Of a DNA stretch of 64,000 bases, positions 12,030 through 54,898 are shown piece by piece. Source of the stretch: Cornus controversa (taxonomy: Eukaryota > Streptophyta > Magnoliopsida > Cornales > Cornaceae); assembly GCA_026545225.1 (NCBI GenBank), contig CM048849.1:43176336-43240335 (forward strand). The letters are read 5' to 3'. The notes below the pieces were generated by a model. The model saw nothing but the letters and a program-made list of their open reading frames with translations, searched no databases and had not been told where the DNA came from. The translations under genes were made by a program, and so were the position numbers. Positions within the stretch are counted from its first letter, which is position 1; each line of letters opens with the position of its first letter.

Positions 12030-12815
12030 AGTGTCGAGACTTAGAGTCTCTCAAAAGCCTATTATATTTTGGGTCTGATAGTGGTGCAACATAGCCACCT
12101 TGTACTAGGTTGAGCTTGACCGAACCATCTTCTTGTAAGTGGCAAACCCACCAAGTTTGGAGTTTGAAACTTTAGCAAACTCGTGGCCTGTGTACTGGAA
12201 CCTAGAATATAGTGGATTTGTGTTTGATAAAGAATGTGGAGATCCAACAAAACCATGCATATGGGCTTTTGAAACAGATGGAACAGGTGGAGATGGAACT
12301 TAGCTATGGTGTGAATCTAATAGACTCTCTTGATACCAGCTACGAAGTGGGTTTGGACTTGATAGAACTTTTTTCTTGACATCAAGGTCCAAATGACGTT
12401 GGCTTGGGCCTGAAGGAGGAACTGGCCTCCTCATATGAACAAAATCAGAAATTTTTGCTTTATGAACATATGGAGGTTGCCTGAAGTGATGAAATGGTGC
12501 TAGGTTTGATTGAATGTGCCTTGCCCTAGTATGCGAGAAACTGAGAGATTTTGAATCAAAAACAAGTCTATCATGGTTGTCATCGATGTCTGGAGATTTC
12601 GAATTGAAAATTAGTTGATCACGGTCACCATCGACATCCGACATTCTCGACAAAACAAGTGTTTTAGAGACTACATGATCCTCCACTCCTTTCATTTGGA
12701 AAAAAGGCAAGAATAATGATGATGATCCTCCACTCCACAAGAACATTGAAGAAAATGCAACAAGAAGAATCATAAGAAACAACATTGTGACACTCCTTTT
12801 CGTAAGCACTTCCAT
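12030..12815 (-). CDS. Type I peptide-precursor-like gene, copy A (171-codon ORF)
   Basis: The ORF 12300-12815 starts MEVLTKRSVTMLFLMILL: a basic n-region, a hydrophobic stretch (about residues 9-27), then SGGSSS, read as a signal peptide or single membrane anchor. Two copies of a D-D/V-D-x-x-x-D-x-L-x-F-x-S-K-S unit follow. The IDA-like box is RRPVPPSGPSQRH and the CLE-like box is KKKVLSSPNPLRSWY. The ORF stops soon after (LLDSHHS, TAA) where sister copies have a Ser codon; homology to the full-length C-terminus continues in frame to about 12030. It is either a shortened functional form or an early pseudogene. A TATA-like TATAAA (minus) lies at 12870-12875. Function is not known. Confidence 0.6.
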
Positions 12816-13958: not shown

Positions 13959-14094
13959 TTCCATTTCTAGGGTTGAGTGTATTTTCATTACCCTATGATA
14001 TCTATGAAAGAAACTAAACAAAGAAATATGCCACACATTAAAACATCCATAATTTTTTCATATATAAGATGAACTATAAATTATAAAATATCAC

Positions 14095-14154
14095 TTACTT
14101 CTAAATTTTGGGATACTAACAAAATATTCCCCATACATATATATATATATACAT

Positions 14155-14191
<37 letters not shown>

Positions 14192-14815
14192 AAATGGTGG
14201 GGTGGATCAGATTTTGTATAGTGTCATGGCCTAGAGTCGCCCGAAAGCCCATTATATTTTGGGTTTGATATTGGTTCAACATAGCCTACTTGTATTGGGC
14301 CTGAACTTGACAGATTCATCTTCTTGTATGTTGCAAACTCAGCAAGTTTAAAGTATGAAACTTTAACAAACCCACAGCCTGAGTAATGAAACCTAAAATA
14401 TAGTGGATCTGTGGTTGAAGAATCTGGGGATTCGAGAAAATTCATGGATCTGGGCTTTTGAAACAGACAGAGCAGGTGGAGGTGTAACAGAGCTTATGGT
14501 GTGAATTTGATGGACCCTCTTGACCAGTTCTGAATTGGGTCTGGGTTTGATGGAAATTTTTTCTTGACATCAAGGCCCAAACTATTAAAACCTCTCCAGG
14601 TTTGTGATAACATTGGCTTGCGCCTGAAGGAGGAACTGGACTCCTCATATGAACAAAATCATAATTTTTTGCTTTGCGAACATATTGAGGTTGCCAAAAG
14701 TGATGAATTGGTGAACACGCCTTGCCCTACTTGGTGAGGAACCTTAGAGATTTGAATTGATCAAAACGAGTCGATCATGATAGTCTGGCGTTCTCGACTG
14801 AACAAGCACAGCAAA
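14095..14815 (-). pseudogene. Type II (5'-deleted) copy B
   Basis: Homologous to the type I genes from just before the DxDGxRD unit to the C-terminus, but the frame is broken: the IDA-like box appears as RSPVPPSGASQCY and the C-terminal part in other frames. Like all type II copies it has an insertion after the PSQ of the IDA-like box (read as HKPGEV) and lacks the signal peptide and promoter. A mixed CA/TA microsatellite (14138-14192) has expanded within the C-terminal part. Confidence 0.7.
14138..14192. repeat. TA/CA microsatellite inside copy B
   Basis: TA repeats, then about 13 CA repeats, then TA repeats, replacing the sequence ATCAAATTACG found at this place in sister copies. Confidence 0.85.
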
Positions 14816-17090: not shown

Positions 17091-17242
17091 GTGCTCCCAC
17101 TTTGACCATATTTTAGATTTTGTTGCTTTCACGCTCCCGATTTTGCACTCACTCTATCTTTCGCTTTCATTCGCCCCCTATGTGACTTTGTTCATACATA
17201 TGATGAACTAGAAATTATGAAATATCACTTTTTTCTAAACTT

Positions 17243-17998
17243 TCAAATACTAACAAAATTTTCCCCATACATCAAATTACGATGGGGTGGATCAGATTTT
17301 GTATAGTGTCGAGGCTTAGAGTCTCCAGCACCTTGTACTAGGCCTGAGCTTGACTGAACCATCTTCTTGTAAGTAGAAAACCTACCAAGTTTGGAGTTTG
17401 AAGCTTTAGCAAACCCACGACCTATGTAACGGAACTTAGAATATAGCGGATCTGGGTTTGATGAAGAATCTAGAGCATGTGTAGGTGCAACAGAGCTATG
17501 GTGTGAATCTAATAAACCCTCTTGATACCAGCTATGAAGTGGGTTTGGGCTTGATGGAACTTTTATCTTGACATCAAGACCCAAATGACGTTGGCTTGGG
17601 TCTGAAGGAGGAACTGGCCTCCTCATATGAATAAAATCATGAATTTTTGCTTTATAAACATGTGGAGGTTGTTCGAAGTGATGAGATGATGCTAGGTTTG
17701 ATTGAACATGTCTTGCCCTACTTTGCAAGGAACTGAGAGATTTTGAATTGAAAAAAAGTCGATCACGGTTGCCATCCACGTCCAGAGATTTTGAATTGAA
17801 AACGAGTTGATCACGGTAGCCATCGATGTCTGACATTCTTGACAAGACGAGTTGTTTAGAGGCTACATTGTCTTCCACTCGATTCATTTGAAAAAAAGGC
17901 AAGAATGACGATGATCCTCCATTCCACATGAATATTAAAGGAAATGCAATAAGAAGAATCATAAGAAACAATATTGTGACACTTCTTTTCGTAAGCAT
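17243..17998 (-). CDS. Type I peptide-precursor-like gene, copy C (251 residues, open)
   Basis: Continuous ORF of 251 codons. The original start (ATGGAAGTG in sisters) reads ATAAAAATG here, so translation would begin at MLTKRSVTILFLMILL, two codons later, keeping the hydrophobic signal-like segment (about 7-24). Two DxDGxRDxLxFNSKS units lie at about 57-87. The IDA-like box is RRPVPPSDPSQRH (116-128) and the CLE-like box KIKVPSSPNPLHS (134-146). Ser/Pro modules follow: SSNPDPLYSKF, then KKMVQSSSGLVQG, then SKPRHYTKSDPP. Compared with copy H it lacks two segments of 14 codons each, both in frame. TATA-like TATAAA (minus) is at 18064-18069. Likely secreted if expressed; function unknown. Confidence 0.7.
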   Translation of the reverse strand: MLTKRSVTILFLMILLIAFPLIFMWNGGSSSFLPFFQMNRVEDNVASKQLVLSRMSDIDGYRDQLVFNSKSLDVDGNRDRLFFNSKSLSSLQSRARHVQSNLASSHHFEQPPHVYKAKIHDFIHMRRPVPPSDPSQRHLGLDVKIKVPSSPNPLHSWYQEGLLDSHHSSVAPTHALDSSSNPDPLYSKFRYIGRGFAKASNSKLGRFSTYKKMVQSSSGLVQGAGDSKPRHYTKSDPPHRNLMYGENFVSI

Positions 17999-20340: not shown

Positions 20341-20461
20341 TTCATCATAGGAAGAAAACTAAACAAAGAAACATATTATACATGGAAGGATCCATATTTC
20401 CTTCATATATATGAGGAATTATAAATTATAAAATATATTTTATTTCAATATTTTTCAGATA

Positions 20462-21130
20462 CTAACAAAATTTTCTCCATGCATCAAAATACGATGGGGG
20501 TGGATCAGATTTTGTATAGTGACAAGGCCTAGAGTCACCCAAAAGCCCATTAGAATTTGGACTTGATAGTGGTGCAACATAGCCATGTTGCATTGGGCCT
20601 GAGCTTGATGGAACCATCTTTTTGTATGTTGCAAACCCACCAAGTTTGGAATCTAAAATTTTAGCAAAACAACGACTTGTGTAATGGAACCCAAAATATC
20701 TAAAATCTGGGGTTGAGGAATCCGAAGAATCAAACAAAACCATGGATTTGGGCTTTTGAAATAGATGGAGGTGGAACAGAGCTATGGTGTGAATCTGATT
20801 GACCCTCTTGATACCAGTTATGAATTGGGTCTAGGCTTGGTGGAACTTTTTTCTTGATATCAAGGCCCAAATGTTGAGGTGGAGGTGGGTGAGGTGAGTC
20901 ACAACAGTGCTCTTTCCCAACTATTAAACCCTCTCCAGATTTGTAATGACATTGGATTGGGCTTAGAGGAGGAATTGGACCATCTGAACAAAAGTGATGA
21001 AATAATGTTAGGTTTGAAACATGCCTTACCCTACTTGGTGAGGAATTGAGAGATTTTGAATGAAAACGAGTCAATCACGATCACCATCAACTTCCGGGGT
21101 TATAGACGGAACGAGCACATCAAATTTGTT
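20462..21130 (-). pseudogene. Type II (5'-deleted) copy D
   Basis: Reads as two overlapping ORFs in different frames (20730-21074 and 20462-20743). The first holds RFHSKSLNSSPSRVRH, the altered IDA-like box GPIPPLSPIQCH, the type II insertion (KSGEGLIVGKEH) and the CLE-like box KKKVPPSLDPIHNWY. The second holds YKKMVPSSSGPMQHGYVAP and HYTKSDPP. No signal peptide; upstream sequence is joined directly to what is promoter-distal DNA in type I copies. Judged a pseudogene. Confidence 0.7.
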
Positions 21131-21324
21131 TAATAGTTTGATACACATATATATACATATACGCAGTATATACCCCAATATGAAATTTTGAAAATACTGT
21201 CAACGATGAATTTATGTCTGTAACCTAGTGGTATCTAGTTTGAGAGTTCAAGTTTCATAGTACAAAAAGTAAGTATGTGAGTTACTTGCAGTATAAAATT
21301 TGAAAACAAAAACTTTGAGGAAGT

Positions 21325-21545
21325 ACAATATCATTTAAGGGAATAAAAAGATCTTGTAATTCACTTATGCAGTTAATTGTTATTAACCATGAGTTCTCAC
21401 ATTTTTGGCTTAAATAATTGCTTTATGGAAAAATAAAAATGAAAAATTGAAGTATACAAGTCTAGAATTAAGTTATCATCTTGCATGAGTATAGAAATAA
21501 AAAACTAAGATACAAGCTACATAATGTCTTGTCTATTACATCTGT
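21325..21545. repeat. Block derived from NOPCHAP1-like 3' flank (unit D)
   Basis: Contains TAAGGGAATAAAAAGATCTT, ACCATGAGTTCTCACA and AAGATACAAGCTACATAATG, matching 38325-38520 downstream of the NOPCHAP1-like stop codon. It ends where the Copia LTR begins. Confidence 0.7.
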
Positions 21546-21547
21546 AT

Positions 21548-22283
21548 TGTTGAAATATATTAGTATATTTTATATATAACCTTTTCAATATCAAATTAGG
21601 ATTCCTATGAATGGGGACTTACTATGTATAGGATAACTTGCTCCTCACTCACCTACCTCTTTTCCTTCTCCTATATATATGATCTCATTATATATTGTTT
21701 ATATACCATTCATTAATATAATTAAGAGATAATTCACTCTCTTTTTCTCTTATTTTAACATGGTATTAGAGTTAGGGTTTTCAAAACCCTCAATTTCTTC
21801 TTCCACTTAATTGTTCTCATCATCTAAAGAGAACTCTTTTTTATTTGGTGCCAAAAATCTATCTTCTGGACACTTTTTGATCTTTTGGACATATCAAAAT
21901 GAAGCCCTTGACTAGATGATCAAGTCATCCCAAAAATCAACTCTAACGAACCTCCACATGCCCCCACGCACTACCAGAGTCTTCTGGGTTTTTTTTCAGT
22001 GACACGCGTCGCCACGCGTCATCATGCGCCACCACGCACTGCCTCGCACGCTAAGTCAGCGTTGACTCAGATTTCAGTGCCACGTTGTCTCCCACATCAT
22101 CATCCACGTCAGTAGCAAATGTACATAATATTTACCACGTCATCAGACACGTTATCTGCCACGTCATTTTTTTGTCATGCCAACTACCACGTCAGCAACA
22201 TTACCTGAATTTTTTTTCTCGAGCCTACCCCACTTGAAATTTCACGCTGATTCTAATTTTCTAGTCTATTTTGTCTATTTTGT
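21548..22283 (+). mobile_element. Ty1/Copia-type LTR plus leader, truncated fossil
   Basis: The LTR runs 21548-21760 (213 bp), starting TGTTGAAATATATT and ending TTTTAACA. It is followed directly by TGGTATTAGAG, a primer-binding site of the initiator-Met tRNA type typical of Copia elements. About 500 bp of leader with many CACGTCAGC/CACGTCA motifs follows and ends abruptly where array DNA resumes near 22283. The element is broken: no coding domains and no second LTR remain. Age cannot be judged without a partner LTR. Confidence 0.8.
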
Positions 22284-22809: not shown

Positions 22810-23613
22810 TTGGATACTAACAAAATTTTTCCCATACATCAAATTACGATGGGGTGGATTAGATTTTGTATAGTGTCGAGGCTTAGAGTCTCCAGCACCT
22901 TGTACTGGGCCTGAGCTTGACCGAGCCATCTTCTTGTAAGTAAAAAACCTACCAAGTTTGGAGTCTAAAACTTTAGCAAACCCACGGCCTTTGTAATGGA
23001 ACTTAGAATATAGCGGATCTGGGTTTGATGAAGAATCTAGAGATCCAACAAAACCATGGATCTGGACTTTTGAAACAAACGGAGCATGCGTAGGTGCAAT
23101 AGAGCTATGGTGTGAATCTAATAGACCCTCTTAATACCAACTACGAAGTGGGTTTGGGCTTGATGGAACATTTATCTTGACATCAAGACCCAAATGACGT
23201 TGGCTTGGGTCTGAAGGAGGAACTGGCCTCCTGATATGAATAAAATCATGAATTTTTGCTTTATGAACATGTGGAGGTTGTTCAAAGTGATGAGATGGTG
23301 CTAGGTTTGATTGAACATGCCTTGCCCTAGTTTCCAAGGAATTGAGAGATTTCAAATTGAAAAAAAGTAGATCACAGTTGCCAACGACGTCTAGAGATTT
23401 TAAATTGAAAACGAGTTGATCACGGTAGCCATCGATGTCTGACATTCTTGACAAGATGAGTGTTTTAGAGGCTACATTATCCTCGACTGCATTCATTTGA
23501 AAAAAAGACAAGAATGATGATGATCCTCCATTCCACAAGAACATTGAAGAAAACATAACAAGAAGAATCATAAGAAATAACACTGTGACACTCCTTTTCG
23601 TAAGCACCTCCAT
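22810..23613 (-). CDS. Type I peptide-precursor-like gene, copy E (160-codon ORF)
   Basis: The ORF 23131-23613 starts MEVLTKRSVTVLFLMILL, with the signal-like segment, two DxDGxRD-type units (the second degenerate, DVVGNCDLLFF), the IDA-like box RRPVPPSDPSQRH and the CLE-like box KINVPSSPNPLRSWY. The stop follows the CLE-like box immediately (TAA for the CAA of sisters). Downstream homology continues in frame to about 22810 and shares with copy C the absence of the 14-codon YVAPLSSPKSN segment, so C and E are close relatives. Either a shortened precursor with the CLE-like box at the C-terminus, or a pseudogene. TATAAA (minus) at 23673-23678. Confidence 0.6.
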
Positions 23614-24747: not shown

Positions 24748-25217
24748 CATGTACTGCATTGTCTCCTCGATTTGAAGTATACACGAATCTTGATTCTTCC
24801 TTCTTCAAAAGCTATATTAGTTGAGCTCGAATTCTGAGGATGGCTCATATTAAAACATTGTATAGAATCAAAGCTTTATACTACTTAAGCTAATGGTCCG
24901 ATGATAATGCATTATTGTTTTTGCTTGTAACCTTATCTTTAGGCTTCATTATTTTTCACATTTTTTCTTAGAAAGTAAACATTAAGCCATTAAATTAGAA
25001 GCCCATCAAAAGAGATGTGACACAAGGTCTTCTTAGGATGTTACCCATCTTAATATAACTCTTGTCTAGTATGCTTAAGACTTTGTTTTAAGACTTAAAA
25101 ATTTGAAAAATACTTTCAAAAAAAATTGAAATAAACTTTCAAATTTGACGAGTATCAAATCCATGCAATTACTTTTCCTTGCTAGAGAATTAGAGGGAAG
25201 ATATATGTATTTTTTAT

Positions 25218-25797: not shown

Positions 25798-25914
25798 TTT
25801 CATCATAGGAAGAAAACTAAACAAAGAAATATATTACACATGGAAGGATCCATATTTCTTTCATATATATGAAGAATTAGAAATTATAAAATATATTCTA
25901 TTTTTATATTTTTT

Positions 25915-26750
25915 CGATACTAACAAAAATTTTCCCATACATCAAAATACGATAGGGTGGATCAGATTTTGTATAGTATCAAAACCTAGAGTGCCCATTA
26001 GATTTTGGGCCTGATAGTAGTGCAACATAGCCATGTTGTTTTAGACCTAAGCTGGATAGAACTATCTTCTTGTATGTGGCAAACCCACCAAGTTTGGAGT
26101 CTAAAACATTAGCAAACCCACAGCCTGTGTAATGGAACCCAAAATATAGTGGATCTGGAATCAACAAAACTGTCTGGGCTTTTGAAACAGATGGAAGTGA
26201 AAGTGGAACAAAGCTATTATGTGAATCTGATGGACCCTCTTGATACCAGTTATAAATTGAATCTGGGCTTGATGGAACTTTTCCTTGACATCAAGGCCCA
26301 AATGTTGAAGTGGAGGTGGGTGACTTTCCCAATTATTAAACCCTCACCAGGTTTGTTATAAAATTGGCTTGGGCTTGAAGGAAGCAAGAGCAATGATAGG
26401 GAGTTCAAATCGGACTAGTCGGAAAGTAGTTTTATGTGAGAGGGGTGGTGGGCCTTACCATATGATGTCATGGTGATGTCATACGGTGGGGGCACACCAC
26501 TTCATTCACATAAAAGTAGAATTGAACTAGTTTGATTTGACCTTTAAATCATTATTATTTGAACAAAATAATGAATTTTGGCTTTGTGAACATATGGAGG
26601 TTGCCAAAAGTGTTGAAATGGTGCTAGGTTTGAATGAACATGCTTTGCCCTACTCAGTGAGGTACTGAGAGATTTTGAATTAAAAACAAGTCAATCATGA
26701 TCGCCATTGACGTTTGGGGTTCTCGACGGAATGACCACATCAAATTTGTT
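25915..26750 (-). pseudogene. Type II (5'-deleted) copy F
   Basis: Homology to other type II copies in several frames: AKSLSSS-like N-part with SSKARHVH, the type II insertion, and C-terminal YKKIVLSSLGLKQHGYVAL and LSGPKSNG. A stretch of about 170 bp (26385-26570) not seen in sisters interrupts the region before the IDA-like box. No signal peptide. Confidence 0.65.
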
Positions 26751-26969: not shown

Positions 26970-28660
26970 ATATTCCCATTTCAGGGAATAAAAAAGACCT
27001 TGTAATTCACTTATGAAGTTAATTGTTAAACTAAAAAAATGGCATGTATGTAAATCAGAAGTAAACATGAGTTTTCAGATTTTAGGCTTAAATAACTACT
27101 TTATGGAAAAATAAAAAATAAAAATGTGAGTTACGCAATGCAGAAATGATTCAGTTCATTTAGAGGAAGATGCAAATCCTTAGATCGAGAGGCGGGTGAA
27201 TGGGTGGGTCTTCTTGCCTTATTTTTATGATTGATTAATTACCCACAATGATTATCAATTAAGCATCCAAACCAATCACAAAATAAATAAAGCAAGTAAG
27301 GAAAATTAGAGATGACACTGGAAATTTTACATGGAAACTTTAGGAAGGAAAAACTACGGGGGTGAGGCAGAAGCCTGTAAAGAAACCAATCCATTATCTA
27401 AAAGCAAAGTACAATAGACTATGTCCTAAACTCACACCCGCTCCACTTTGACGAGAACTTTGATGCGGAACGCCTCAGACTTACTTTTGTGACTTGTTCA
27501 ATTGCTACAGACTCCTGGCTAACATTACAATTCTTCCAGAAGGGTAGTTGAAAGAACACAAATACTCCTAAAGTATTTTATCCTCTTCGTAGTGATCATT
27601 TCTTCTCACTCTTCAGATAGAATCAAGTAACGTCATGGAACCACCTCTGATGATCTAATCAAACTGTATAGATTGATGATGTCTTTTAAGAACCCGGTTG
27701 ATCAGATTGAGAAGAGTATCAAAACTTAAACACTCGATGTGTGTATGCTTTCCAAAATATAGACAGTAAAATAAAATTCTCTATTGAAAAATATTTCTTC
27801 TGTTTTCTCTCTCTAAAAAGATTTTTTTGATATGTAATGAAAGATCCTTGAAAGCATTAATTTTTCCTCCTCTCATAGAGAGAAAACATATGAGGGTTTA
27901 TATAGATAACAAAGCCCTAATTTTTCTTGAAAAATAAGTTAAAAATCAATAGAAAATAAATCTCGATGTTTTAGGAAAGTTCGGGGTCAAATCCGTGTCA
28001 AAACAGGACAAAGAAGGCAAAATCCCATAGAACATAAGCCTTGGACAGGTATAGCTCAAACTTGGACCAGTCCAGCTCTTGTAGCAAGAAGCTGAGACCT
28101 TTTGGACTAATCTAGCCTTTACTTGGACCGGTCCAACTTTGTTAGTGACCAAATTTGAGGTCCTAAGAGCTCTTGGACTGGTCCGGGTTTGACTTGAGCC
28201 GATCTAACTTTGAAAATTATAAAATTTTAACTTTGAAACTCTATTTTTTAGATCATAAAACACGTTGTAAAAACCTGTGTCCTCACGAACTTACTTGGAC
28301 TAAATGATGTTCAAATCATGATCAACGACGTTCATTCTCACTTATAGCCACTTGAATGCATCAATCAACCAAAGTCTTTGTTGAGGCACTCTTTAGATAA
28401 TGCATTGATGAAAAACACGCCCCAAGCTCTTAGTCTTCAACTCCATGATCGATTACAAAAATATGAATGAAAGATTACAACTCGATCAACATAGTTTTGA
28501 CACCGAATATTGCTAATTACAAATATATACGTTACAAAAAATTGAAGTATATAAGACTAGAATAGAGTTATCAGTATAGAAATCAAAAATTAAGATACAA
28601 GCTACATAACGTTTTGTCTATTACATTTGTATCATACGAAATTTTCACAAATAACTCTGG
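26970..28660. repeat. NOPCHAP1-like 3' flank block of unit F, split by a solo-LTR-like insertion
   Basis: 26970-27124 (CCCATTTCAGGGAATAAAAA, AAACATGAGTTTTCAGA) and 28537-28660 (TATAGAAATCAAAAATTAAG, AAATTTTCACAAATAACTC) together match 38325-38665. The second part reaches almost to the stop codon of the source gene. Confidence 0.75.
27125..28536 (-). mobile_element. Probable solo LTR, about 1.4 kb (family uncertain)
   Basis: On the minus strand the insertion starts TGTAACGTATATATTT and ends GCGTAACTCACA (TG...CA), with AAAAA on both sides as a likely 5-bp target duplication. A TATA-like TCTATATAAACC (minus, near 27905) fits an LTR promoter. No coding region or second LTR is seen, so it looks like a solo LTR fossil. 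Confidence 0.55.
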
Positions 28661-29274: not shown

Positions 29275-29630
29275 ATTTTCGAATATCAACAAAAGTTTTC
29301 CTATACATGAAATAGGATGGGGGTGGATTAGATTTTGTGTAGTGTTGAGGCCCAGAGTCGTCTATGATTTTGAAATAAGAAAATAGTCTATCTGACTTTC
29401 AGACCCCATAATGACGAGTCTCATAAACTGAACATGTCGAGACCATCTTCTTGTATATAACAAAACCACCAAATTTGGAGTAACAAACCCTCGACTTGGA
29501 TCTGGGCTTTTGAAATAGATGGACCAACAGAGCGATGGTCTGAATCTGATATTAGACCCTTTTGATGCTAGTTATGAATTGGGTTTGGGCTTGATGAAAG
29601 TTCTCTTGACATCAAGGCCCATATATATGA
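29275..29630 (-). pseudogene. Type III C-terminal relic, first copy
   Basis: Only the C-terminal part of the family gene, diverged, with a block (GAAAATAGTCTATC) not found in types I and II. It abuts the next type I copy directly. The same arrangement occurs at 36760-37130. Confidence 0.6.
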
Positions 29631-29639
29631 TGTAGAAAT

Positions 29640-30455
29640 TATAAAATATCACTTTTTTTTTAACTTTCGAATACTAACAAAATTTTCCCCATACATCAAA
29701 TTACGATGGGTCAGATTTTGTATAGTGTTGAGGCTTAGAGTTGATCGGAAGCCCATTAGATTCTGGGCCTGATAGTGATGCAACATAGCCACCTTGTATT
29801 GGCCTGAGCTTGACCGAACCATCTTCTTGTAAGTGGCAAATCCACTAAGTTTGAGTCAGAAACTTTAGCAAACCACCCACGGCTTGTGTAATGGAACCTA
29901 GAATATAGGGGATCTGTGTTTGATGAAGAATCTGGAGATCAACAAAACCATGGATCTAGGCTTTTGAAACGGATGGAGCATGTGGAGGTGGAACATAGCT
30001 ATGGTGTGAATCTAATAGACCTTCTTGATACCAGCTAAGAAGTAGGTTTGGACTTAATGTTTCTTGACTTAAAGGCCCAAAGGACGTTGGCTTGGGCCCG
30101 AAGGAGGAATTGGCCTCCTCATATGAACAAAATTATGAATTTTTGCTTTATGAACATATGGAGGTTGCCTAAAGTGATGAAGTGGTGCTAGGTTTGATTG
30201 AACATGCCTTGCCTTGCTTTGCAAGGATCTGTGAGATTTCCAATTGAAAAGGAGTCAATCACGGTCACCATCAATGTCCGATATTCTTGACGAGACGAGT
30301 GTTTTAGAGGCTACATGATCCTCCACTCCATTCATTTGGAAAAAATGCAACAATGATGACGTTGATCCTCCACTCCAAAAGAACATTGAAGAAAATGCAA
30401 CAAGAAGAATCATACGAAACAACAGTGTGACACTCCTTTTCATAAGCACTTCCAT
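29640..30455 (-). pseudogene. Type I copy G, pseudogene
   Basis: Starts MEVLMKRSVTLLFRMILL with an intact signal-like segment, but a TGA replaces an Arg codon after 66 residues (ORF 30255-30455). Homology resumes: HHFRQPPYVHKAKIHNF, RRPIPPSGPKPTSFG (IDA-like box damaged by an indel) and LLDSHHSYVPPPHAPS. TATA-like TATAAA (minus) retained at 30510-30515. Confidence 0.75.
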
Positions 30456-31504
30456 CTCTCACAAATAAACCCTAGAGGAGCTTGTGAACATTAATGAATG
30501 AAACTTGTATTTATATAGAGAGAGCTCAACCCTGATTTATTTAGAGAAAGTATTGTAATTGATATAGAAGCTTTACCAAATGATGTTATGATGTTCCCTA
30601 TTTTGGGCAGTGTATGGCAATCCCACTAACCAAATTTCTTTACTCGTTAACTGAATCTTGCAATTTCAATTTCATGCTTGTAAGATAAAAAAAAACCAAC
30701 ATTTAACAACCACCACATCAACTTTGTTTGACACTTGGCCACACACAAACATATACTTTGGAAAGTTGAACTCGGATCCTCTTGACATGTTTTATCCTAC
30801 TTTATTGTATAATTAAATCAAGAGCTACGCCATGCAATAAAATTAATCGAAGATACCATTCTACTAAATAAAAAATGCAGCAATAATGAAAAGTGTTGCA
30901 TTTCCAATTTAGTAATATTGTAATATTACATCTCACTGTAATATGTTGTATAGTTATTGCCATTCCCTACGCAAATATATCGTATGAGTGTTTGTATTTG
31001 TGTTGCATTCTCATATACTGCTTTGTCTCCTTGATTTGAACTATACACGACTCTTCAGTGCATTGGGGAGGATCTTGATTCTTCCTTCTTCAAAAGCTAT
31101 ATTACTTGAGCTCGAATTCCGAGGATGGCTCATATTAAAACATTGTATAGAATCAAAGCTTTATACTACTTAGGCAGTTAGGCTAATGATCCGATGATAA
31201 TGCATTATTATTTTTGTTTGTAACCTTATCTTCAGGCTTCATTATTTTTCACATTTTTTCTTAGAAAGTAAACTTTAAGCCATTAAATTAGAAGCCCATA
31301 AAAAGGGGTGTGACACAAGGTCTTCTTAGGATGTTATCCATCTTAGTACAACTCTTGTCTAGTATGCTTAAGACTTTGGTTTAAGAGTTAAAATTTTGAA
31401 AAATACCTTAAAAAAAATTAAATAAACTTTCAAATTTGATAGAGTATCAAATCCATGCAATTACTTTTCCTTGCTGGAGAATTAGAAAGTAGATAGATTT
31501 TTTA

Positions 31505-31662: not shown

Positions 31663-31824
31663 TCCTTTTGTTTGGAATCATTAATGATAGTCATTATTAA
31701 GTGTACTTTCATCATAAGAAGAAAAATAAACAAAGAAACATACTACACATTGAAGAATCCATATTTCTTTCATATATGTGGGGAATTAGAAATTATAAAA
31801 TATCTTTTATTTCTATATTTTTCA

Positions 31825-33055
31825 AATACTAACAAATTTGTCCCATACATCAAAATACGATGGAGGTGGATCAGATTTTGTATAGTGTCAAGGCCAAGAG
31901 TCGCCCGGAAGCCCATTAGATTTTGACCCTGATAGTGGTGCAACATAACCATGTTGTACTAGGCCTGAGCTTGACAGAACATCTTTTTGTAAGAGGTAAA
32001 GTCCTAGAAAGTATGGATACTGATACGGGACATGGGTATGATATGATACAGGTACGGCGATACGACAAATCTTAAAAAAATAGGATACGAGTATAGTAGG
32101 ACACAACAATATAAAAATAATAAATTCTATTTTTATATATACAAAAAATTGAGTTATGAACATTTCTTTATAAAATATTATGATTAACAAACAAAATAAG
32201 AGTTAAGAATTATATTGGATAATTTACATGGATAGATTTTGTATTAAATTATGAAATATATCTCAACACTTCTTTTTAAGTAAATTTAAACTTTTCTTAA
32301 CAATTATACTATGATATTATTGTTAAAAAAGCTACATTTTAATGTTCAAAACTTGTTAAAAATGTGTTCTAAAGTATCTGACAAGCATCGGATAAGTGTT
32401 AGAAATAAAAAATATATTTTAAAATTATGAATACATTTAGAAAGTATCGGACACGTATCTGCGAGAATCCGAGGAGTATCAGTATTCGATATGGTACGTT
32501 ACTCTTGTAGAAGTATCCGTGGTTCATAGTGGTAAACCCACCACATTTGGAGTCTGAAACTTTAGAAAACCCATGGCCTGTGTAATGGAACCCAAAATAT
32601 AGTGGATCTAGGGATGAAGAATTTGGAGAATCAACAAAACCATGGATCTGGGCTTTTGGAACAGATGGAGGTGGAACAGAGCTATGGTGTGAATCTGATG
32701 GACCCTCTTGATACTAGTTATGAATTGGGTATGGGCTTGATGGAACTTTTTTCTTGACATCAAGGCCCAGATGCTGTGGGTGAGGTGGATCAGAATAGTG
32801 CTCTTTCCCAACTATTAAACCCTCTCCAGGTTTGTTATGACATTGGTTTGGGCCTGAAGAAAGAACTAGGCCATATGAACAAATAATGAATTTTTGCTTT
32901 GTGAACATATGGAGGTTGCCAAAAGTGATGAAATAGTGCTAGGTTTGAATGAAAATGCCTTGCCCTACTTGGTGAGGAACCGAGAGATTTTGAATCAAAA
33001 ATGAGTCAATCACGATCGCTATCGACATCCACATCAAATTTGTTTGATAGTTGGG
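31825..33055 (-). pseudogene. Type II copy J, interrupted by a transposon
   Basis: C-terminal half 31825-32000 and N-terminal half 32528-33055, separated by the element at 32001-32527. Readable pieces include SSGPNQCHNKPGEG, then PQHLGLDVKKKVPSSPYPIHN (type II insertion and CLE-like box). No signal peptide; disrupted. Confidence 0.7.
32001..32527. mobile_element. Mutator-like non-autonomous element with 9-bp target duplication
   Basis: Inserted in copy J. Flanks AGAGGTAAA (31992-32000) and AGTGGTAAA (32528-32536). Ends contain GTATGGATACTGATACGGG and, from the right, GGATACTTCTACAAG; the interior has many GTATCGGACACG-like words typical of a common plant repeat. A related fragment is at 51470-51720. 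Confidence 0.65.
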
Positions 33056-33253: not shown

Positions 33254-33727
33254 CCATTCGCCACACAAATATATTTCATGAGTGTTTGTATTGGTGTTGC
33301 GCTATTTATCATCTACTGCGTTGTCTCCTCGATTTGAAGTATACATAGCTTTTTAGTGCCTTGGAGAGGATCTTGATTCTTCCTTCTTCGAAAGGTATAT
33401 TACTTGAGCTCGAATTATGAGGATGACTCGCATCAAAACACTGTATAAAATCAAAGCTTTGTACTACTTAATTAGGCTAATGGTCCGATGATAATGCATT
33501 ATTGTTTTTGCTTGTAACCTTATCTTTAGGCTTCAATATTTTTCACATTTTTTCTTAGAAAATAAAATTTTAGCCACTAAATTAGAAGTCCATAAAAAGG
33601 GGTGCGACACAAGGTCTTCTTAGGATGTTACCCATTTTAGTACAACTCTCGTCCAGTATGCTTAAGACTTTGGTTTAAGACTTGAAATTTGAAGGAAAAA
33701 AACTTTAAAAAAAAGAAGAAGGAAAAC

Positions 33728-35659: not shown

Positions 35660-35790
35660 TTGCCCTGCTTGCTGAACATGCCTTGCCCTACTTGGTGAGT
35701 AGCTGAGAGATTTTGAATTGAAAATGAGTCGATCACGATTTCCATTGACCTCTGGTGTTCTCGATGGAATTAGAATATCAAATTTGTTTG
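35660..35790 (-). pseudogene. Type II fragment K
   Basis: Only the DxxGNRDRLIFNSKSL and SPSRARHVQ part remains, with the usual type II upstream junction; the rest is deleted. Confidence 0.65.
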
Positions 35791-36759: not shown

Positions 36760-37130
36760 ATACCAACAAAAGTTTCCCTGTTCATCAAACAAGGTGGGGT
36801 GGATTTGTATATTGTCGAGGTCTAAAATCGTCTATAATTTCAAAATAAGAAAATAGTCTATTTACATGAGAATGTAACACTGCGTACATCTGACATTTGT
36901 CTGACCCAAAATGACCGAGTCTCATAAACTAAATTTGTTGGAACCATCTTCTTGTATCTAACAAAACGACCACATTTGGAGTAACAAATCCTCGGCCTGG
37001 ATCTAGGCTTTTGAAACAGATAGATCAGGTGGAGGGGGAACAAAGTGATAGTCTGAATCTAATGGACCCTCTTGATGCCAGTTATGAATTGGGTTTGGGC
37101 TTGATGAAAGTTCTCTTGACACCAAAGCCC
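36760..37130 (-). pseudogene. Type III C-terminal relic, second copy
   Basis: Same structure as 29275-29630 (GAAAATAGTCTATTT block, then ACCATCTTCTTGTAT), directly abutting copy H. Confidence 0.6.
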
Positions 37131-37162: not shown

Positions 37163-37981
37163 TCACTTTTTTCTAAACTTTCGGATACTAACAAAATTTT
37201 CCCCATACATCATATTACGGCGGAGTGGATCAGATTTTGTATAGTGTTGGGGGTTAGAGTCGCCCAGAAGCCCATTAGATTTTGGGCTTGATAGTGGTGC
37301 AACATAGCCACCTTGTACTGGGCCTGAGCTTGACCAAACCATTTTCTTGTAAGTGGCAAACCCACTAAGTTTAGAGTCTGAAACTTTAGCAAACCCACGG
37401 CCTGTGTAATGGAACCTAGAATATAGTGGATCTGGGTTTGATGAAGAATCTGGAGATCCAACAAAACCATGGATCTGGGCTTTTGAAACAGATGGAGCAG
37501 GTGGAGGTGGAAGAGAGCTATGGCGTGAATCTAATAGACCCTCTTGATACCAGCAAGGAAGTGGGTTTGGGCTTGATGGAACCTTTTTCTTCACATCAAG
37601 GCCCAAATGACCTTGGCTTGGGCCTGAAGGAGGAGCTGGCCTCCTCATATGAACAAAATCATGAATTTTTGCTTTATGAACATATGGAGGTTGCCTGAAG
37701 TGATGAAATGGTGCTACGTTTGATTGAACATGTCTTGACTTACTTTGCAAGGAACTGCGAGATTTTGAATCGAAAACGAGTCCTTCATGGTCGCCATGGA
37801 CATCCGGCATTTTCAACGGAGTGAGTGTTTTAGAAATTACATGATCCTTCACTCCGTTCATTTGAAAAAAAGACAAGAATGATGACGATGATCCCCCACT
37901 CCATATGAACATGGAAAAAAATGCAACAAGAAGAATCCTAAGAAACAACACTGTGACACTTCTTTTAGTATGCACTTCCAT
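37163..37981 (-). CDS. Type I peptide-precursor-like gene, copy H (272 residues, intact)
   Basis: Best reference copy. I start at 37981 (MEVHTKRSVTVLFLRILL), the codon shared with copies A, E and G, although an in-frame ATG lies 12 codons upstream. Residues about 8-27 are hydrophobic, followed by SGGSSSS: signal peptide or anchor. One DxHGDxExLVFDSKS unit lies at about 60-74. IDA-like box RRPAPPSGPSQGH at 113-125; CLE-like box KKKVPSSPNPLP at 131-142; then SSSNPDPLYSRF (179-190), KKMVWSSSGPVQGGY (212-226), LSSPKSN (230-236) and DSNPQHYTKSDP (241-252). The C-terminus is basic (IRKFRKK). TATAAA (minus) at 38037-38042 implies a very short leader. I recognise no exact family; a secreted multi-motif peptide precursor is inferred, not shown. 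Confidence 0.75.
   Translation of the reverse strand: MEVHTKRSVTVLFLRILLVAFFSMFIWSGGSSSSFLSFFQMNGVKDHVISKTLTPLKMPDVHGDHEGLVFDSKSRSSLQSKSRHVQSNVAPFHHFRQPPYVHKAKIHDFVHMRRPAPPSGPSQGHLGLDVKKKVPSSPNPLPCWYQEGLLDSRHSSLPPPPAPSVSKAQIHGFVGSPDSSSNPDPLYSRFHYTGRGFAKVSDSKLSGFATYKKMVWSSSGPVQGGYVAPLSSPKSNGLLGDSNPQHYTKSDPLRRNMMYGENFVSIRKFRKK
37556..37645 (-). other. Paired IDA-like and CLE-like boxes in copy H
   Basis: 37607-37645 encodes RRPAPPSGPSQGH, compared with the IDA/IDL core PIPPSAPSKRHN. 37556-37591 encodes KKKVPSSPNPLP, compared with CLE motifs such as RxVPSGPNPLHN; the near-invariant Gly is Ser here. Both are preceded by basic residues (RR, KKK). Confidence 0.6.
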
Positions 37982-38309: not shown

Positions 38310-38674
38310 TTCTTTTTTTCCACATTTCAGGGAATAAAAAAAGACCTTTAATTCATTTATGCAGTTATTTGTTAAGCTAAAAAATGACATCTCTGTAAAT
38401 CAGATGCAAACATGAGTTCTCAGATTTTAAGCTACTATGGATTTCATCTCAACTTCTCTCTGCCTTGAATGAGTATAGAAATCAAAAATTAAGATATAAG
38501 CTACATAACGTCTGCCTATTACATTCTGCATCAACTATAAAAGCAACAGACGCATAATTCCCAATTCGTCAGGAAATTCTTGAAGGTTTTCAACTCATAT
38601 CCGTACCATTACAGAACAACAGTTCCGCAGATACAAATTTTCCACAAATACCTCTGACAAATTGAGAAAAGGTT
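38310..38674 (-). other. 3' flank/3' UTR of NOPCHAP1-like gene, source of array blocks
   Basis: This lies directly after the stop codon of the NOPCHAP1-like gene. Diverged copies sit in units B, D and F. A poly-A run on the plus strand at about 38223-38240 marks the border with copy H upstream DNA. Confidence 0.7.
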
Positions 38675-41600
38675 CTATGAGAGCTCAATAATCTTGGGTC
38701 GCTTTTTTGACTGATGATTTCTAGCAGGTTTAGATCTTTTAGATTTCGTAGGAGAGCATGTGTCATTGTCATCGTCGTCGTCATCATCATTGCTGTCATC
38801 ATTATTATCGTCACTGTCATTGTCATCATCGTCGCTGTCATCACTGCTATCTTCAGATTCCGTCCCACTACTGCTACCAGCCAAAGAAATCACTGGTTGA
38901 TCACCGGCAATTGCTGACTCAGCTGCAGCAACAGCCTCAGGGGTATGAAGATCAGCAACACCCAGCATCAAATCCTGTGATTTGATGCGCCAAATAATCA
39001 ACTTAGAAACATGTTGGCTGCCAATTGTCGGAAGGCAAAGAAAATAAAAAGAAAGCCCTCATTTACCATTTCAATGTATTCAGCTTCGTTTCCAGTGAGC
39101 ACTTCAATGTCATAGTCCTTAGAACTGTCCTGCATTTTATCAAGGCACACTAACATCAGAATTTAAGAGAATGAATGGAATTAGGATAGAAAATTTGATT
39201 CCTTTACAAGATGTGAATATTATGTTTACCTTTGCATCTATCTGCAGCCTTTGATTTGCTTCCGATATGACACCCAAAAAATCCTTCACTTTTCCCAGAA
39301 CTGAAGTAGTGACAAAATAAGCATAAGCTGTAATGGGAATATTGCTTCTACTTTTACCTATTTACTCTAGGGTAGAACCGTAGAAGCATCAGTTTTATTC
39401 GGGATACTAAAACCTTATGAAGCACGGACACTTAGGACTAAATGGACACTACCTCATCTGACACTAGAAAAGAATCAGAAGCAGGAAATATGCATCAATT
39501 CTTCTTTCTTCTTTTTTTTTTTTCCTTATTTGTTTCAAAAGAAATTGAATATTATACACATGATCAAAATAAGTCAAGCATTTAATAATGGACACTTCAA
39601 GAATCCACCACTAAGAAAGGGATATAACGAGGAATTAGTGGTTGTACACATGATATTTGTTGAGTGTATACTTCCAAGTTATGCAACTTTGAATTGATCA
39701 AATTATATGTTTCTCCCATATTAAATATTTACACATATATTGAATCTTGTCCCATCCAATCATTTAAAATTACCATTTCAGTGTGTCCTTGCCATGATGT
39801 GTGTCCATATTCATGCTACATAACAACCTCTAACATATATTATATAACTAAGCTGGGACTCTGATTTTCCATATGAATACTTAAGTTTGTAATAATACCC
39901 TCAATTATTTTCTTTATCCCACTAAGCAAGTAGTTGCTATCAATACTATATTCACAACAAACAGGAGGACGAACAGAGACAGGGACTGGTTCTTGGCTCA
40001 TCAGTTTTCTTAACAGATTCAAGATAAATTCACAAGGCAGTGGCATCTCTTTAGCATCTACAGCAGCATGCGTAGCAATAGCTGTATATCAGCTGCATTC
40101 ATATCTATTTCTTTAGCTATTGGACCTAGCAAAACGGATTCATCGAACCATACAGATGATCAAGTAATGATAGAATACAACAACGAAAAGGAGATTTCTA
40201 GATCTCACATCTACTTAAATCATGGAATATAATAATCTACTTCATAAAATATTACAGACCAACTTGTCAAATTCACATTACTCCCCGATTTTCACTTACC
40301 AACGTGAAACTCATAATGCACAGAAATAAACTAAAAAATTTCCATTGATTTCTGGTTCAAATCTAGGATGGCATAGTTGTGCCAGAAAAAAAAAAAGAAG
40401 GGCATAAGACTCCACAAATGCATTTGGTTTGGGGGAAAATAGCTCACTTGATAGAATTCCGCTCTTCCAATTGGGTTGTTCCAATTACATGTTTGGATAT
40501 TTATTTGTCCGGGCGGTAATAGTATCTTGTGCCTCACTTTTTCAAGGTCAATAAATAAGAACAACTATTCTATGTCCAAAACTCGGTCTGCTTGCTCCAG
40601 CAAAAGTTCATATACTGTGTCTCCAACACACTATATGAGAGAGAGAGGGGGAGAGAGAACTCTCCTTGTACGAGTTATTTCTTGACTGTTCCCTTGTACT
40701 TTTTTATGAGGTAACAATGATTGAAATTTCTTAAACACAAATTGAGGTCTTAGCTGTCGCAACTAAAGTGATAATTTTGTATGAAAAGAAGTTACAAATC
40801 ATCAACTTCATAAGACTTGATGGTTAGATTACCTATAAGCCTTTAAAGAAAGAAACAAAAAACAAGCAAGTTTCAATTATCAATCATAACAGTGCCCACA
40901 CTGCTCTTAAGAGCAATTTTTACAGTGTAAAAGTAAAAACCTCTACTTGACAATATTTCGGAGACTGCGCAAAATTAGAAGAAAAGTGCTCAGGTAAATC
41001 ACTTATAACCAATTAATATTAAAATGTTAAAATAATAACTGAATCACCTGGGTTGCTAAAAGCGATTGAATTTGTTTTTAGTTTTCTCATTTATAAACAA
41101 AAGAACAATGTATTTTGTTTTAATATATTAACTTTTTGCAATTAAAATCTGTTTGGTAACTACCGAACAAGAATCAAATTTTCATAGGTGGGTAAGTCCC
41201 TCTTGCTGCATTATAAGAAATATAATGATCCTCAAACATTTTTTTTTTTTGAGGAGTGTTTTTCATCATCAATTTTTAAGTCATTTTTTTGCTTACAACA
41301 TTAAATTCTATTCTCATATCTAAAATGTTAACAATACTAGAGAAATTTAAATGCTACTTTTAACTTAGAAACTGTATTCTGTTTGTATAAATAGAAAATA
41401 ACTTTTTAACCGTATCGATGCACAATCTTACTATCAGAAAAAGCCCTAATTAAACAGAGATTATCAATATAATTGTTCTCCACCAGAATCTAAAACTTAG
41501 ACCATTGCAGTCAAGTGTGGAAAATGGAACAACAGTTCGACGTCAGGAGATCAAACATTATGCAACATTAGGGATGCAAAAGACTTGGAAACAAGGTTTC

Positions 41601-44299: not shown

Positions 44300-47200
44300 C
44301 TATTTAGAGTTGTCAACAAAGAGTATCTTCTCGGGATGGAAAGGACCGCGCTCACTGTGTGTAACATGGCCATTCCACCTCATCCGGTCTGTGATGCTTT
44401 TAACTTTCACAATGACATCCACATGATCTCTTATTACAACGGCCCCTTCAGGGCGAAGAATCCGATACATTTCAAAAAGAATGCCAATAATGTCACACCT
44501 GCATAAAGACCAGATAAGTTTAAGATAATAACATTACATTATCAACTTGTATCTTCTAATTAATTTTCTCTCTGCCCACATAGTGAAGAAATTCAACAAA
44601 CCAAACCAAGTACTGCTAGAGAGAGTAGAAACTGAGAAAAGTATCTACAAATCTATCAACACTTTCACTTTCCTACACACCTCAAGCTAAGTAAATGTAT
44701 GTGAAGAATAGTTACTAAATTCTTTCCAAACTAAGTACTCTCTTCCAACCAACAAAACCAGAAGATTTTAGTAAAAAAGTCATCTAGACAGTTGCACCAT
44801 TTGCACCAAATTCCATATATGAAAGAAGAAAAGCAGAACATTCAAAATTAAAACTGACTGCTATTGCCTTCGTAGCATTTGGATGACTCACAGAAATAGC
44901 ACCTATCTATTGGGTTTTATGAAATATTTGAATGACAGTTAATTATTGCATTTAAGCAAGTCAAGTTGCTTCAATAAATAGAAGACAGAAAAGTTTCCAA
45001 TACCTTAATAAATTTCTTCTTTGAAAATTATACTTTCTATCAACTTACTAGACCAATTTATGAGTCAAATGCCAAGTAAAACACAAAGAGAGGGTTAATT
45101 TTCCACGGGACATCTAAACATCTCCTATAGAAACGCTAGGAATTTAAATACTTACTTGTTCATGTACATGCTAAATAAACCATCAGCGTGTATAAAGTCA
45201 TATGTTCGAGGGTAAGTTGAGAAGGGCTCACACCTGCAAGCAAGAATATCTTGTAAAATCAGCAGTTTAATTGGAAAAACAAAATATTTCATAATTAACA
45301 AACTTGCTATGGTTTTCTAAATTCATAGAACAAATTAAAGTGGATTAATCTAATAATATCAAAGAGTGATGAAACCAAATACGACGGCCAAGTGTCAAAC
45401 AGTTGCTCTGTTAGATTACAAGGAAAATGCTGGTGGAGACATCACACTTTGATGCTTTAAGTGAAAAAATCAGGAACACACAAAACCAGAAAACTAGAGA
45501 AGCCAGAGAAATCCAATTCCAATCGTTGAAAGATTTTTTCATGTCATCCCAAATTTGTGGTTACTTAATTTGTGGAGAATCGGTAGTACCAGCAGCAAAC
45601 ACCTTATTTTCCTTGTTATAGTTCAACTTCTAATTATAAAAACCTAAGCTCTGTGGTGGTAATAAATTTAACATATAACACAAACTGTGGGTTAAGAATA
45701 TTGTTATTTTTTGACGTAGACATGGTTAGGCCCTGTACATACTTTTAGCAAATGTCAGATGTATTTAAAGATCTTATTTCATTCAAGTTACTAGCATAGC
45801 TATCCAACAATGCTACTCCAGGTTTTAGACTCAGATGCTTTAATAAGCAGCAAAATTCCAACATTTACAAGCAAAAAATGACTGAACAATCATTAAGTAT
45901 GTCACAAAAGACAATAAACACTTTTCTCTCTTTCATTTTTATTTTTATTTTTATATCATCCGAAAGAAAGAAAAAAGGAAAGAAAAAACCTTCAAGTCTC
46001 ACCAGTTCATGTATGTTCCAATAAGGCCACGTTCATAGATCACACCAAGCGTATTGTTATTTGCATCAACAGGAACCACATTCATAACCCAAACTGGGTA
46101 CTTGGAAAGTGCAGCTGCAAAACCTCCTAAGCCAGCATTCATGTCCATAATATTTCTATATCTACCAGCAAAGAGAGATTTGAGAATACTTCCATAGTAC
46201 AGAACTCTCCTTTTCCATAATTGATTATCTTCATTAAAGGTCCTGATGGTAGTGCCTTTCACCATGCCGCTTTTAATTCTTGGTGGAGCAGTAATCAACC
46301 TTTGAGGCCATTTTTCAAGAGCACCCCCAGCAGTATCCTGGATATCTGTCACCCTTGGAAGAGGAGTAATACATGTATCTATCTTCTCGTACCTAGAGAA
46401 AAAAGTTAATATTTTCAAAATGATGAATTTTTCTTATAGGGGTCACTGCTTCGTGCAATAGTAGAAACTTGGGTTGCAAGCGTCAAAATGCCAGTTTGAA
46501 TGCAAGAGCAGCCACATTTTACAAAATAATGCAAAAAGTTAAGTTTGTTTCTATTCTCTACCCTCCCAGCACCCTGCTAGGTGGGAGCAACATTAGGTAA
46601 TGGCCTTTTAGAGAATTTTATTAATAGCTTGCTTTTTTACATATCATTTACAACATTGTGAAATTCCATAGAAAGTAGCCAGAGACTACATACCCAAAAA
46701 GAAACTTGCCTAGAAATTGTGCAATTACAATGTCTCAAAATTGACTTATGCTCAGTAGAATGCTGATGATGGAGGGAGAAAAAAGATATAAATTTGAATT
46801 TTAGAAAAACAGTTCCAACCCCTCGAAAGTTGTAATATTCAAAAGTTCTCTCCCTTTCCCGCTTCTCAGTAATCATACGTTACATTTCAAAAAGGAACTA
46901 GATTGTAGACAAAAGTATGTTAAATGCATCGGAAACGTTTTGGATTGTAAATTCTGGCCTCTTTTAGGGGGGGAAAAAGAAAAAAGAAACAAATTAGAGA
47001 CTAAAACGAGGAAATTAAAACTTAGGAAATTAATTGACGAAAGATGAATGGTAGCTTGGATTCTAAAATGAGCTCTAAAACTTTTGGTACTGGAAATTTG
47101 GATTGATGTGAAACAGCACATGCAAAAGCTGTGTAGAAGGATGCTTTTATGTTACCAATATTGAGGTAGAAGCAATATTGCACAAGCCAATTCAATTTTT

Positions 47201-50200: not shown

Positions 50201-50621
50201 CCGGCCTCGGGACCAAACACCGGAGAGCATCCGCGGTGTCAGGGCAGTGCCGCTCTCTGTGGAAACGATTTTCAGTAACGAAAGAAGTTTCCCTTTTTGG
50301 GTCTTGACAGGGACAGTAGTCTGTGAAGTTCTTGGGGCAGTATGTGAATAATTGGAGGGTTTGTGGGGGGTCTGGTGGGAGCGAGAGAGTGTGTTGGGGT
50401 TCAAAATGGAGGGACTGAGAAAGGGTTTTGTGGGTTGTGAGGTTTTGGAGTTGGAGACAGTTTGGGACTTGAAGAGGGTGTGTAGAGGTTGCATTGTAGG
50501 AGTTTTTATTGTAGAAGCCCAGAGTGTAGGAGAGTGAGCAGAGGATGGTGATGAGGAAAACCCTAATCAAGGGTTTTCTCAGAGGGTTTGGAGTAGGTGG
50601 TTGGTGTGGTGGTGTTGCCAT
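44300..50621 (-). CDS. PMT19: Probable pectin-type methyltransferase of the PMT15-19 clade
   Basis: Six exons: 49953-50621, 48080-48290, 47419-47716, 46003-46392, 45156-45233 and 44300-44498; phases agree and give 614 residues, the family's usual length. Start [16 protein letters not shown] at 50621; the upstream in-frame Met at 50696 gives an odd extension. A type II membrane anchor ([17 protein letters not shown]) is followed by a Pro/Thr stem and a Golgi-lumen methyltransferase domain (Pfam Methyltransf_29). Visible family motifs: [38 protein letters not shown] (SAM site), [60 protein letters not shown] and RDHVDV. No damage seen. Members are thought to modify wall polysaccharides. The symbol rests on clade similarity and on the PUX11 neighbourhood, so it is tentative. 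Confidence 0.9.
47180..47255. repeat. Two-copy tandem repeat, 38 bp, in PMT intron
   Basis: GCACAAGCCAATTCAATTTT with its flank TATGCTTTTACTCCAATT occurs twice without change. Confidence 0.9.
49728..49853. repeat. Two-copy tandem repeat, 63 bp, in PMT intron 1
   Basis: A unit with CAGAGCAATTAGAATAATAA and GAAAAGCCTCAGACACAAAC starts at 49728 and 49791; nearly identical, so recent. Confidence 0.9.
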
Positions 50622-50699
50622 TTTGTGTGCTTTGGTGAGGTTTGCATTGCAGGGGTTCTGTGATGGAGTGATAGTCCTTACTTGAGTACCTCTCACTCC

Positions 50700-54772: not shown

Positions 54773-54774
54773 GA

Positions 54775-54898
54775 TAATGGACGGATTTGATTTAGAAAAG
54801 TTCGTGGGGAGGGGGTTTACACTTTATCGTGTATTTGGATATAGTATGAAAGTTGGAATCCTGGAGTGCAATACATGTGTTTTACTGTTTATTGACGA

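Follow-up and report, generated by a model that had tools for sequence, protein, structure and literature searches.

In plants, the peptide hormones of the IDA, PIP and CLE families are secreted, hydroxylated, cut to short peptides and read by receptor kinases of subclass XI, and the precursors of the IDA and CLE families usually hold one type of peptide. According to the published descriptions, IDA/IDL precursors are shorter than 120 amino acids and combine a secretion signal with a C-terminal motif that ends in His-Asn (PMC4627355), CLE precursors of 60-120 amino acids carry in their last third a dodecamer with a critical Gly6 and His11 (PMC2254619, PMC5570945), and PIP/PIPL precursors carry GxGH at the extreme C-terminus after an SGPS motif (PMC4526919). 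A motif-clustering study placed with IDA a set of seven PVPP-type genes, for each of which PVPPSGPSPCHN is the predicted peptide, and also proposed a shared ancestor for CLE and IDA (PMC7552357).

Precursors with more than one box are described in the same body of literature. Multi-CLE genes are found in legumes, some of them in tandem (PMC5570945), Arabidopsis PIP2, PIP3 and PIPL1 carry double SGPS motifs (PMC4526919), and AtCLE18 unites a CLE and a CLEL peptide in one precursor (PMC4526924, PMC4526919). The first box of Medicago CLE68 is given as RKVPSSPDPIHN, with Ser in place of Gly (PMC2254619). The multi-CLE Medicago sequence was later identified as MtCLV3, in which an intron leaves one of three boxes translated (PMC4526924), and CLE68 is therefore a precedent for the word and a less certain one for a multi-box protein. 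The literature searched, the coverage of which excludes most subscription papers, yielded no plant precursor reported to unite an IDA-type with a CLE-type box.

The window considered here is the whole stretch of 64,000 nucleotides of Cornus controversa DNA that was analysed, for which an initial annotation had proposed an undescribed family of multi-peptide precursors with both kinds of box in one protein. The locus is probably a partly decayed local tandem family of secreted, SGP-rich (IDA/PIP/CLE-group) precursors in which an IDA-like box is followed by a CLE-like box. The proposed family thus survives in part: the precursor look of the frames and the hormone-like boxes of sister copies speak for it, while membership in IDA or CLE fails and one local array is what it comprises. 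The word "undescribed" holds within the literature searched, as far as its accessible text goes, and is claimed no wider.

Architecture of the tandem array

When copy H was compared with the window, a minus-strand tandem array was found between 11.9 and 38.1 kb, comprising about nine gene copies that are mostly broken (Table 1), with fragments near 29.2-29.6, 35.7, 36.7-36.8 and 37.0-37.1 kb. Copies A, C, E and G match H at full length, and B, D, F and I are without the 5' part. In an unrooted tree of the shared 3' part, from which alignment columns found in fewer than seven of the nine copies were removed, B, D, F and I split from A, C, E, G and H with an ultrafast bootstrap of 100, and D, F and I group together with a value of 98. 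B, D, F and I are referred to as long forms because the stretch that joins their boxes includes a segment missing from the short forms; the extra segment measures 25 codons in D. An intron between the long-form boxes was considered and rejected, as a GT...AG pair can be drawn in I but, by eye, D and F have no AG there.

At the 5' side of the long forms, the promoter and signal peptide of the short forms are replaced by a block that reaches about 440 bases. B and D have the whole of this block, and F, I and J are preceded by parts of it. Two small stretches upstream of H (38323-38374 and 38464-38524) also match it, and a further piece lies at 28537-28632. The genome and viral contig collections searched, which are not plant collections, yielded no homologue from outside the window, and "family" therefore denotes one local array here. 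A pattern search for relatives in non-plant collections returned nine matches in genome contigs and one in viral contigs, none of which was confirmed.

Two intergenic repeats were also observed. Pieces of the first (16715-17014, 22283-22582 and 11539-11762) are 94-96% identical and lie downstream of C, E and A, suggesting recent duplication of the whole unit; this repeat occurs nowhere else in the window, and no long open frame was found among its six frames. The second (24885-25124, 19569-19808, 31178-31417 and 33472-33714) is 89-93% identical, lies near D, F and I, has shorter matches at 10048, 28878 and 36015, and is without coding sign. At one codon, TGA is present in D, F, I and G (near 21073, 26693, 33008 and 30257, respectively) and CGA in B, C and J, which matches the expectation for methyl-CpG decay in unread DNA.

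Table 1. Coordinates of the array copies, their boxes and associated elements within the window.
Feature	Position	Strand	Remarks
Copy H, complete open frame, 272 codons plus stop	37163..37981	-	upstream in-frame ATG at 38017 would give 284 aa
H residues 1-30, hydrophobic, signal-peptide-like	37892..37981	-	hydropathy and modelled helix
H IDA-like box PAPPSGPSQGHL	37604..37639	-	
H CLE-like box KKVPSSPNPLPC	37553..37588	-	
H TATA-like word TATAAA	38037..38042	-	starts 61 bases before ATG
Copy C, complete open frame, 251 aa	17243..17998	-	match to H 17198-18147; first ATG of sisters missing and start shifted two codons downstream; 42 bases deleted in frame at two places, the second deletion common to E
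C IDA-like box PVPPSDPSQRHL	17582..17617	-	
C CLE-like box IKVPSSPNPLHS	17531..17566	-	sole His11 among A, C, E, H
Copy A, 171 aa	12300..12815	-	match to H 11921-12954, homology running on to ~11921; stop 12 residues past CLE-like box; one-base gap beyond
A IDA-like box PVPPSGPSQRHL	12390..12425	-	
A CLE-like box KKVLSSPNPLRS	12339..12374	-	
Copy E, 160 aa	23131..23613	-	match to H 22765-23756; stop two residues past CLE-like box; same frame beyond open to 22792, the common end
E IDA-like box PVPPSDPSQRHL	23191..23226	-	
E CLE-like box INVPSSPNPLRS	23140..23175	-	
Copy G, full-length, broken	29590..30597	-	stops; coding gaps of 7, 1, 1, 1 and 5 bases
G first box PIPPSGPSQRPL	30078-30113	-	
Copy B, long form	14062..14779	-	frame broken between boxes
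B first box PVPPSGASQCYH	14604-14639	-	
B second box KKFPSNPDPIQN	14527-14562	-	
Copy D, long form	20407..21110	-	both boxes in one 114-aa open frame without signal peptide
D first box PIPPLSPIQCHY	20943-20978	-	
D second box KKVPPSLDPIHN	20817-20852	-	
5' block of long form D	21120..21560	-	matched wholly or partly before B, F, I, J
Copy F, long form, broken	25865..26734	-	
F first box LLLPSSPSQFYN	26355-26390	-	
F second box GKVPSSPDSIYN	26249-26284	-	
Copy I, long form, broken	31783..33030	-	stops and ~500 bases of extra DNA
I first box LVLSSGPNQCHN	32834-32869	-	
I second box KKVPSSPYPIHN	32717-32752	-	
Fragment with CLE-like box RELSSSPNPIHN	36998..37130	-	box at 37081-37116
Similar fragment, box RELSSSPNPIHN	29497-29624		box at 29571-29606
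Copy J, short mid-gene fragment	35673..35768	-	neither box

Anatomy of the encoded precursors

The prepropeptide anatomy predicted for the frames supports the view that they look like secreted peptide precursors. The signal-like N-terminus annotated for A, C, E and H was borne out as a hydrophobic stretch, with a best 15-residue Kyte-Doolittle mean of 2.5-3.2 that starts at residues 9-12 and values that never exceed 1.1 beyond residue 45. In the AlphaFold model of H, a helix spans residues 3-27, a four-residue helix lies at 106-109 and no other helix is present; the mean pLDDT is 45 and no confidently folded domain is seen, a poor model being expected anyway from an alignment of just four sequences. 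Pro and Ser together make up 19-25% of the frames, and basic residues precede both boxes, RR the first and K[KI][KN] the second.

A profile or structure search that placed the protein in another family had been named in advance as a finding that would count against the annotation. Pfam and the Protein Data Bank gave no convincing match: Pfam returned nothing for C, A and E and a single match for H with E = 4.9, which is not meaningful, and the Protein Data Bank matches, to chloroplast S14 alone (E = 0.048 and 0.17), were judged to be chance. The message RNA of H folds with z = -1.35, and 2 of 20 shuffles fold equally well. All five full copies have a TATA-like word, which lies at -62 to -71 in A, C, E and G; a second such word at -83 to -95 is present in A, C, E and H and absent from G. 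A bacterial promoter scan is meaningless for plant DNA.

Composition of the two boxes

The annotated succession of RRP[VA]PPS[GD]PSQ[RG]H and K[KI][KN]V[PL]SSPNPL[HRP] is exact in the frames of A, C, E and H. The gap between the boxes, given as five to nine residues, is five in all four copies; the boxes with their spacers read RRPAPPSGPSQGH-LGLDV-KKKVPSSPNPLP in H, RRPVPPSGPSQRH-LDLDV-KKKVLSSPNPLR in A, RRPVPPSDPSQRH-LGLDV-KIKVPSSPNPLH in C and RRPVPPSDPSQRH-LGLDV-KINVPSSPNPLR in E. The first box ends in His-Leu in these four copies and in Pro-Leu in G, and none of the five short forms has Cys10. Among the four long forms, three have Cys10, two have Asn12 and one (copy I) has the complete Cys-His-Asn end. 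Asn12 is missing from both boxes in A, C, E and H, and His11 of the CLE-like box, found in two of the four long forms, is present in C alone of these copies. Taken over the four long forms only, the most frequent letter at each position of the second box gives KKVPSSPDPIHN, identical to the first box of CLE68 at 11 of 12 positions; agreement with the CLE68 box extends to 8-10 positions in the individual long forms and to 6-8 in A, C, E and H. Judged by their letters, the boxes of the sister copies B, D, F and I resemble known hormones more closely at their ends.

The match of each frame to known peptides was compared with 4,000 shuffles, the first 32 residues being left out except in D, where the frame was used whole; the reference dodecamers were picked after the boxes had been seen, and the figures therefore somewhat flatter the match. 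The best IDA-type match (five dodecamers) covers 10, 9, 9 and 8 of 12 positions in A, C, E and H and was equalled in 0, 0, 1 and 4 shuffles, respectively. For the best CLE-type match (five dodecamers), the corresponding values are 6, 8, 7 and 7 positions and 157, 1, 15 and 24 shuffles, which makes the CLE word of A weak when taken alone. In the D frame, the IDA-type match (6/12) was equalled in 455 shuffles and is not significant, and the CLE-type match (9/12) was equalled in none.

An alternative reading is that the frames encode a different Pro/Ser-rich secreted protein in which both words are chance matches. Their Pro and Ser content, the lack of a family match, the weakness of the single CLE word in A and IDA word in D, and the fact that 64 kb had been scanned for any known motif would all agree with it. 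However, both words jointly occurred in none of the 4,000 shuffles in each of the five frames (A, C, E, H and D), and the long forms, which the initial annotation had not cited, approach published peptides at the diagnostic ends; chance matches are thus considered improbable. It is also conceivable, but highly improbable, that the boxes and the similar words downstream of them are copies of one ancestral unit within a tandem-repeat precursor. Such an origin could account for KA[KQ]IH[DG]FV in both halves of H and for the likeness, by eye, of KKKVPSS and KKMVWSS, but the alignment of one half of H with the other was equalled by 122 of 2,000 shuffles.

Relationship to described peptide families

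By the criteria tested, which are those given in the cited reports, the predicted product is not a member of the IDA/IDL, CLE, PVPP-type or PIP families. Shared with IDA/IDL are Pro3, Pro4, Ser5, Pro7, Ser8 and His11, all present in A, C, E and H, and an N-terminus that resembles a secretion signal by hydropathy and predicted helix. In contrast to IDA/IDL, the frames are 160-272 amino acids long instead of fewer than 120, the box starts at residues 115-131 and is not C-terminal, and its end is His-Leu instead of His-Asn, the latter being found only in the broken copy I. Of the four copies, A alone fits the pattern [PL][VI]PPS[AG]PS exactly, C and E having Asp6 and H having Ala2. The central position of the IDA-like box had been recognized as a weak point by the initial annotation; multi-CLE precursors and AtCLE18 offer precedents for it, while the C-terminal placement typical of IDA is still lacking.

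The resemblance to the PVPP-type genes is closer in wording, the first box reading PVPPSGPSQ- and the long forms sharing Cys10 (three of four) and Asn12 (two of four) with PVPPSGPSPCHN. However, the nine copies match this peptide at 5-9 of 12 positions, with A the best (9/12) and none identical, the open copies have Arg or Gly at position 10 and Leu at position 12, and a CLE-like box lies downstream. On its letters, the likeness is therefore a resemblance at diagnostic places and not an identity. An SGPS core like that of PIP/PIPL peptides (PMC4526919, PMC4154866) is found in A, G and H and extends to SGPSQRH in A and to SGPSQGH in H; in C and E, Asp stands at the place of the Gly. Assignment to PIP was rejected, GxGH being absent by eye from the frames of A, C, E and H. 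From its predicted sequence, the gene fits the looser SGP-rich group (PMC4154866).

The CLE-like box shares the V[PL]SSPNPL core in A, C, E and H and VPSSP-PIHN-like words in the long forms, and multi-box CLE precursors of up to 347 amino acids as well as tandem CLE genes are known (PMC2254619, PMC5570945, PMC4526924, PMC7552357). It differs in Ser6 instead of Gly6 in A, C, E and H, in the absence of His11 from A, E and H, in Lys or Ile at site 1, and in being a single CLE-like box beside an IDA-like one. The substitution of Ser for Gly, likewise flagged as a weak point, has a precedent in the CLE68 box, and the critical Gly6 is still absent. None of the four frames is 60-120 amino acids long; the box lies in the last third in A (148-159 of 171) and E (147-158 of 160) and outside it in C and H. 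No open copy has the His-Asn or His-His end of CLE. Ser12 is known in 26 of 2,156 CLE candidates in one survey (PMC7552357), and Ser12 of A, C and E therefore need not mean loss. AtCLE18 similarly has two peptide types in one precursor, one of them in the variable region, but its second type is CLEL where the present one is IDA-like.

Conservation of the reading frame

The frames of H and C run uninterrupted to the end, those of A and E are closed by a stop shortly past the second box, and G is broken; the initial annotation mentioned neither these early stops nor that G, B, D, F and I are broken or missing their 5' part. Within their frames, H, A, C and E differ by indels of 48, 3, 42 and 42 bases; all four are multiples of three, compared with one of six in the broken G (P = 0.048), which supports past translation of the short forms. 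Ratios of dN/dS were obtained for H, A, C and E in all six pairings from Nei-Gojobori counts without transition bias, a procedure that tends to inflate the ratio; the counts omit codons that contain a gap or a stop, continue past the stops of A and E, and do not include G. Over the whole frame the ratio is 0.64-0.92 (0.77 for H versus C, P = 0.36). The N-terminal and pro region gave 0.44-0.87, with an excess of silent changes that is nominally significant in three of the six pairs. The two-box stretch gave 0.70-1.56 in five pairs and is undefined in the sixth, and the tail gave 0.62-1.90. The two highest tail values (1.90 and 1.39) belong to pairs with A, the third such pair giving 0.87, and the tails of A pairs are read almost entirely beyond the stop of A.

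At the level of codon counts, constraint is visible on the N-terminal half only, and weakly. No protein-level constraint on the boxes is visible by these counts, and with 0-3 silent changes per pair in this stretch selection is hardly detectable either way. The confinement of constraint to the N-terminal half speaks against the boxes as the present functional core, an argument that is tempered by the small number of silent changes.

These observations bear on the reading that the array stems from a peptide-precursor gene that is now dead, with H and C open merely through youth and no peptide made. In accordance with such a history, seven of the nine larger copies are truncated, frameshifted or without the signal-peptide part, besides the additional fragments, the whole-frame ratios lie in the range given above, and in A, C, E and H alike both box ends deviate from hormone ends. 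A dead array is nevertheless judged rather unlikely: H and C, although about 100 substitutions and two 42-base deletions set them apart, share an open frame some 250 codons long, the similarly diverged G has five frameshifting gaps, and silent changes are in excess in the pro region of half of the pairs. The TATA-like words kept in five of five copies point the same way, but such a word is also present in the broken G, which makes the argument weak. Overall, the gene can be taken with moderate confidence to have been a peptide precursor in the past, and with low confidence to serve as such today.

Proposed processing and significance

For the favoured partly decayed family of secreted SGP-rich precursors, known families suggest how the product would be processed. 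The precursor would be secreted and its prolines hydroxylated, cleavage would occur at the basic residues ahead of each box, and two peptides of about 12 residues would be released. Their readers would be receptor kinases of subclass XI, HAESA/HSL-like for the first peptide and CLV1/BAM-like for the second. The long forms suggest that the ancestral boxes ended in His-Asn, although the tree is unrooted and the older state of these ends is therefore unproven. The open copies may have lost the end of the first box together with the segment that followed it, and that of the second box by substitution. Peptides of the open copies, if released, would thus be altered or weakened, and the altered ends would be expected to weaken recognition by receptors.

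Whether one precursor supplied IDA-type and CLE-type peptides to two receptor groups, with both ends changed recently, is a doubtful but consequential extension of the favoured reading. If true, it would be the first precursor joining the IDA and CLE families within the literature searched, in its accessible text, and a trace of the proposed common origin of the two. Such a pairing could release two signals in a fixed ratio to related receptors. One receptor, HSL1, shows strong binding of IDA peptides and weaker binding of CLE9 (PMC8847575). Additionally, since degraded and better-ended sister copies stand side by side, the pairing is amenable to simple comparison in related species.

Additional features of the window

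No Rfam family reached the gathering threshold in the window, and no tRNA was found with bacterial search settings. Pieces of a gene of the plant-specific Methyltransf_29 family lie at 45999-50717 on the minus strand, where three open stretches cover positions 1-132, 198-289 and 290-417 of the 506 in the profile; their presence marks the window as plant DNA. An open frame with a UBX domain (Pfam E = 4e-13) is located at 983-1570, also on the minus strand, and another open frame at 38675-39058 contains a long run of Asp, Ser and Asn, with sub-threshold Pfam matches only. At 53985-54799, two inverted repeats with arms of 130 and 77 bases are 75% and 79% complementary, respectively, and are perhaps a decayed hairpin element.
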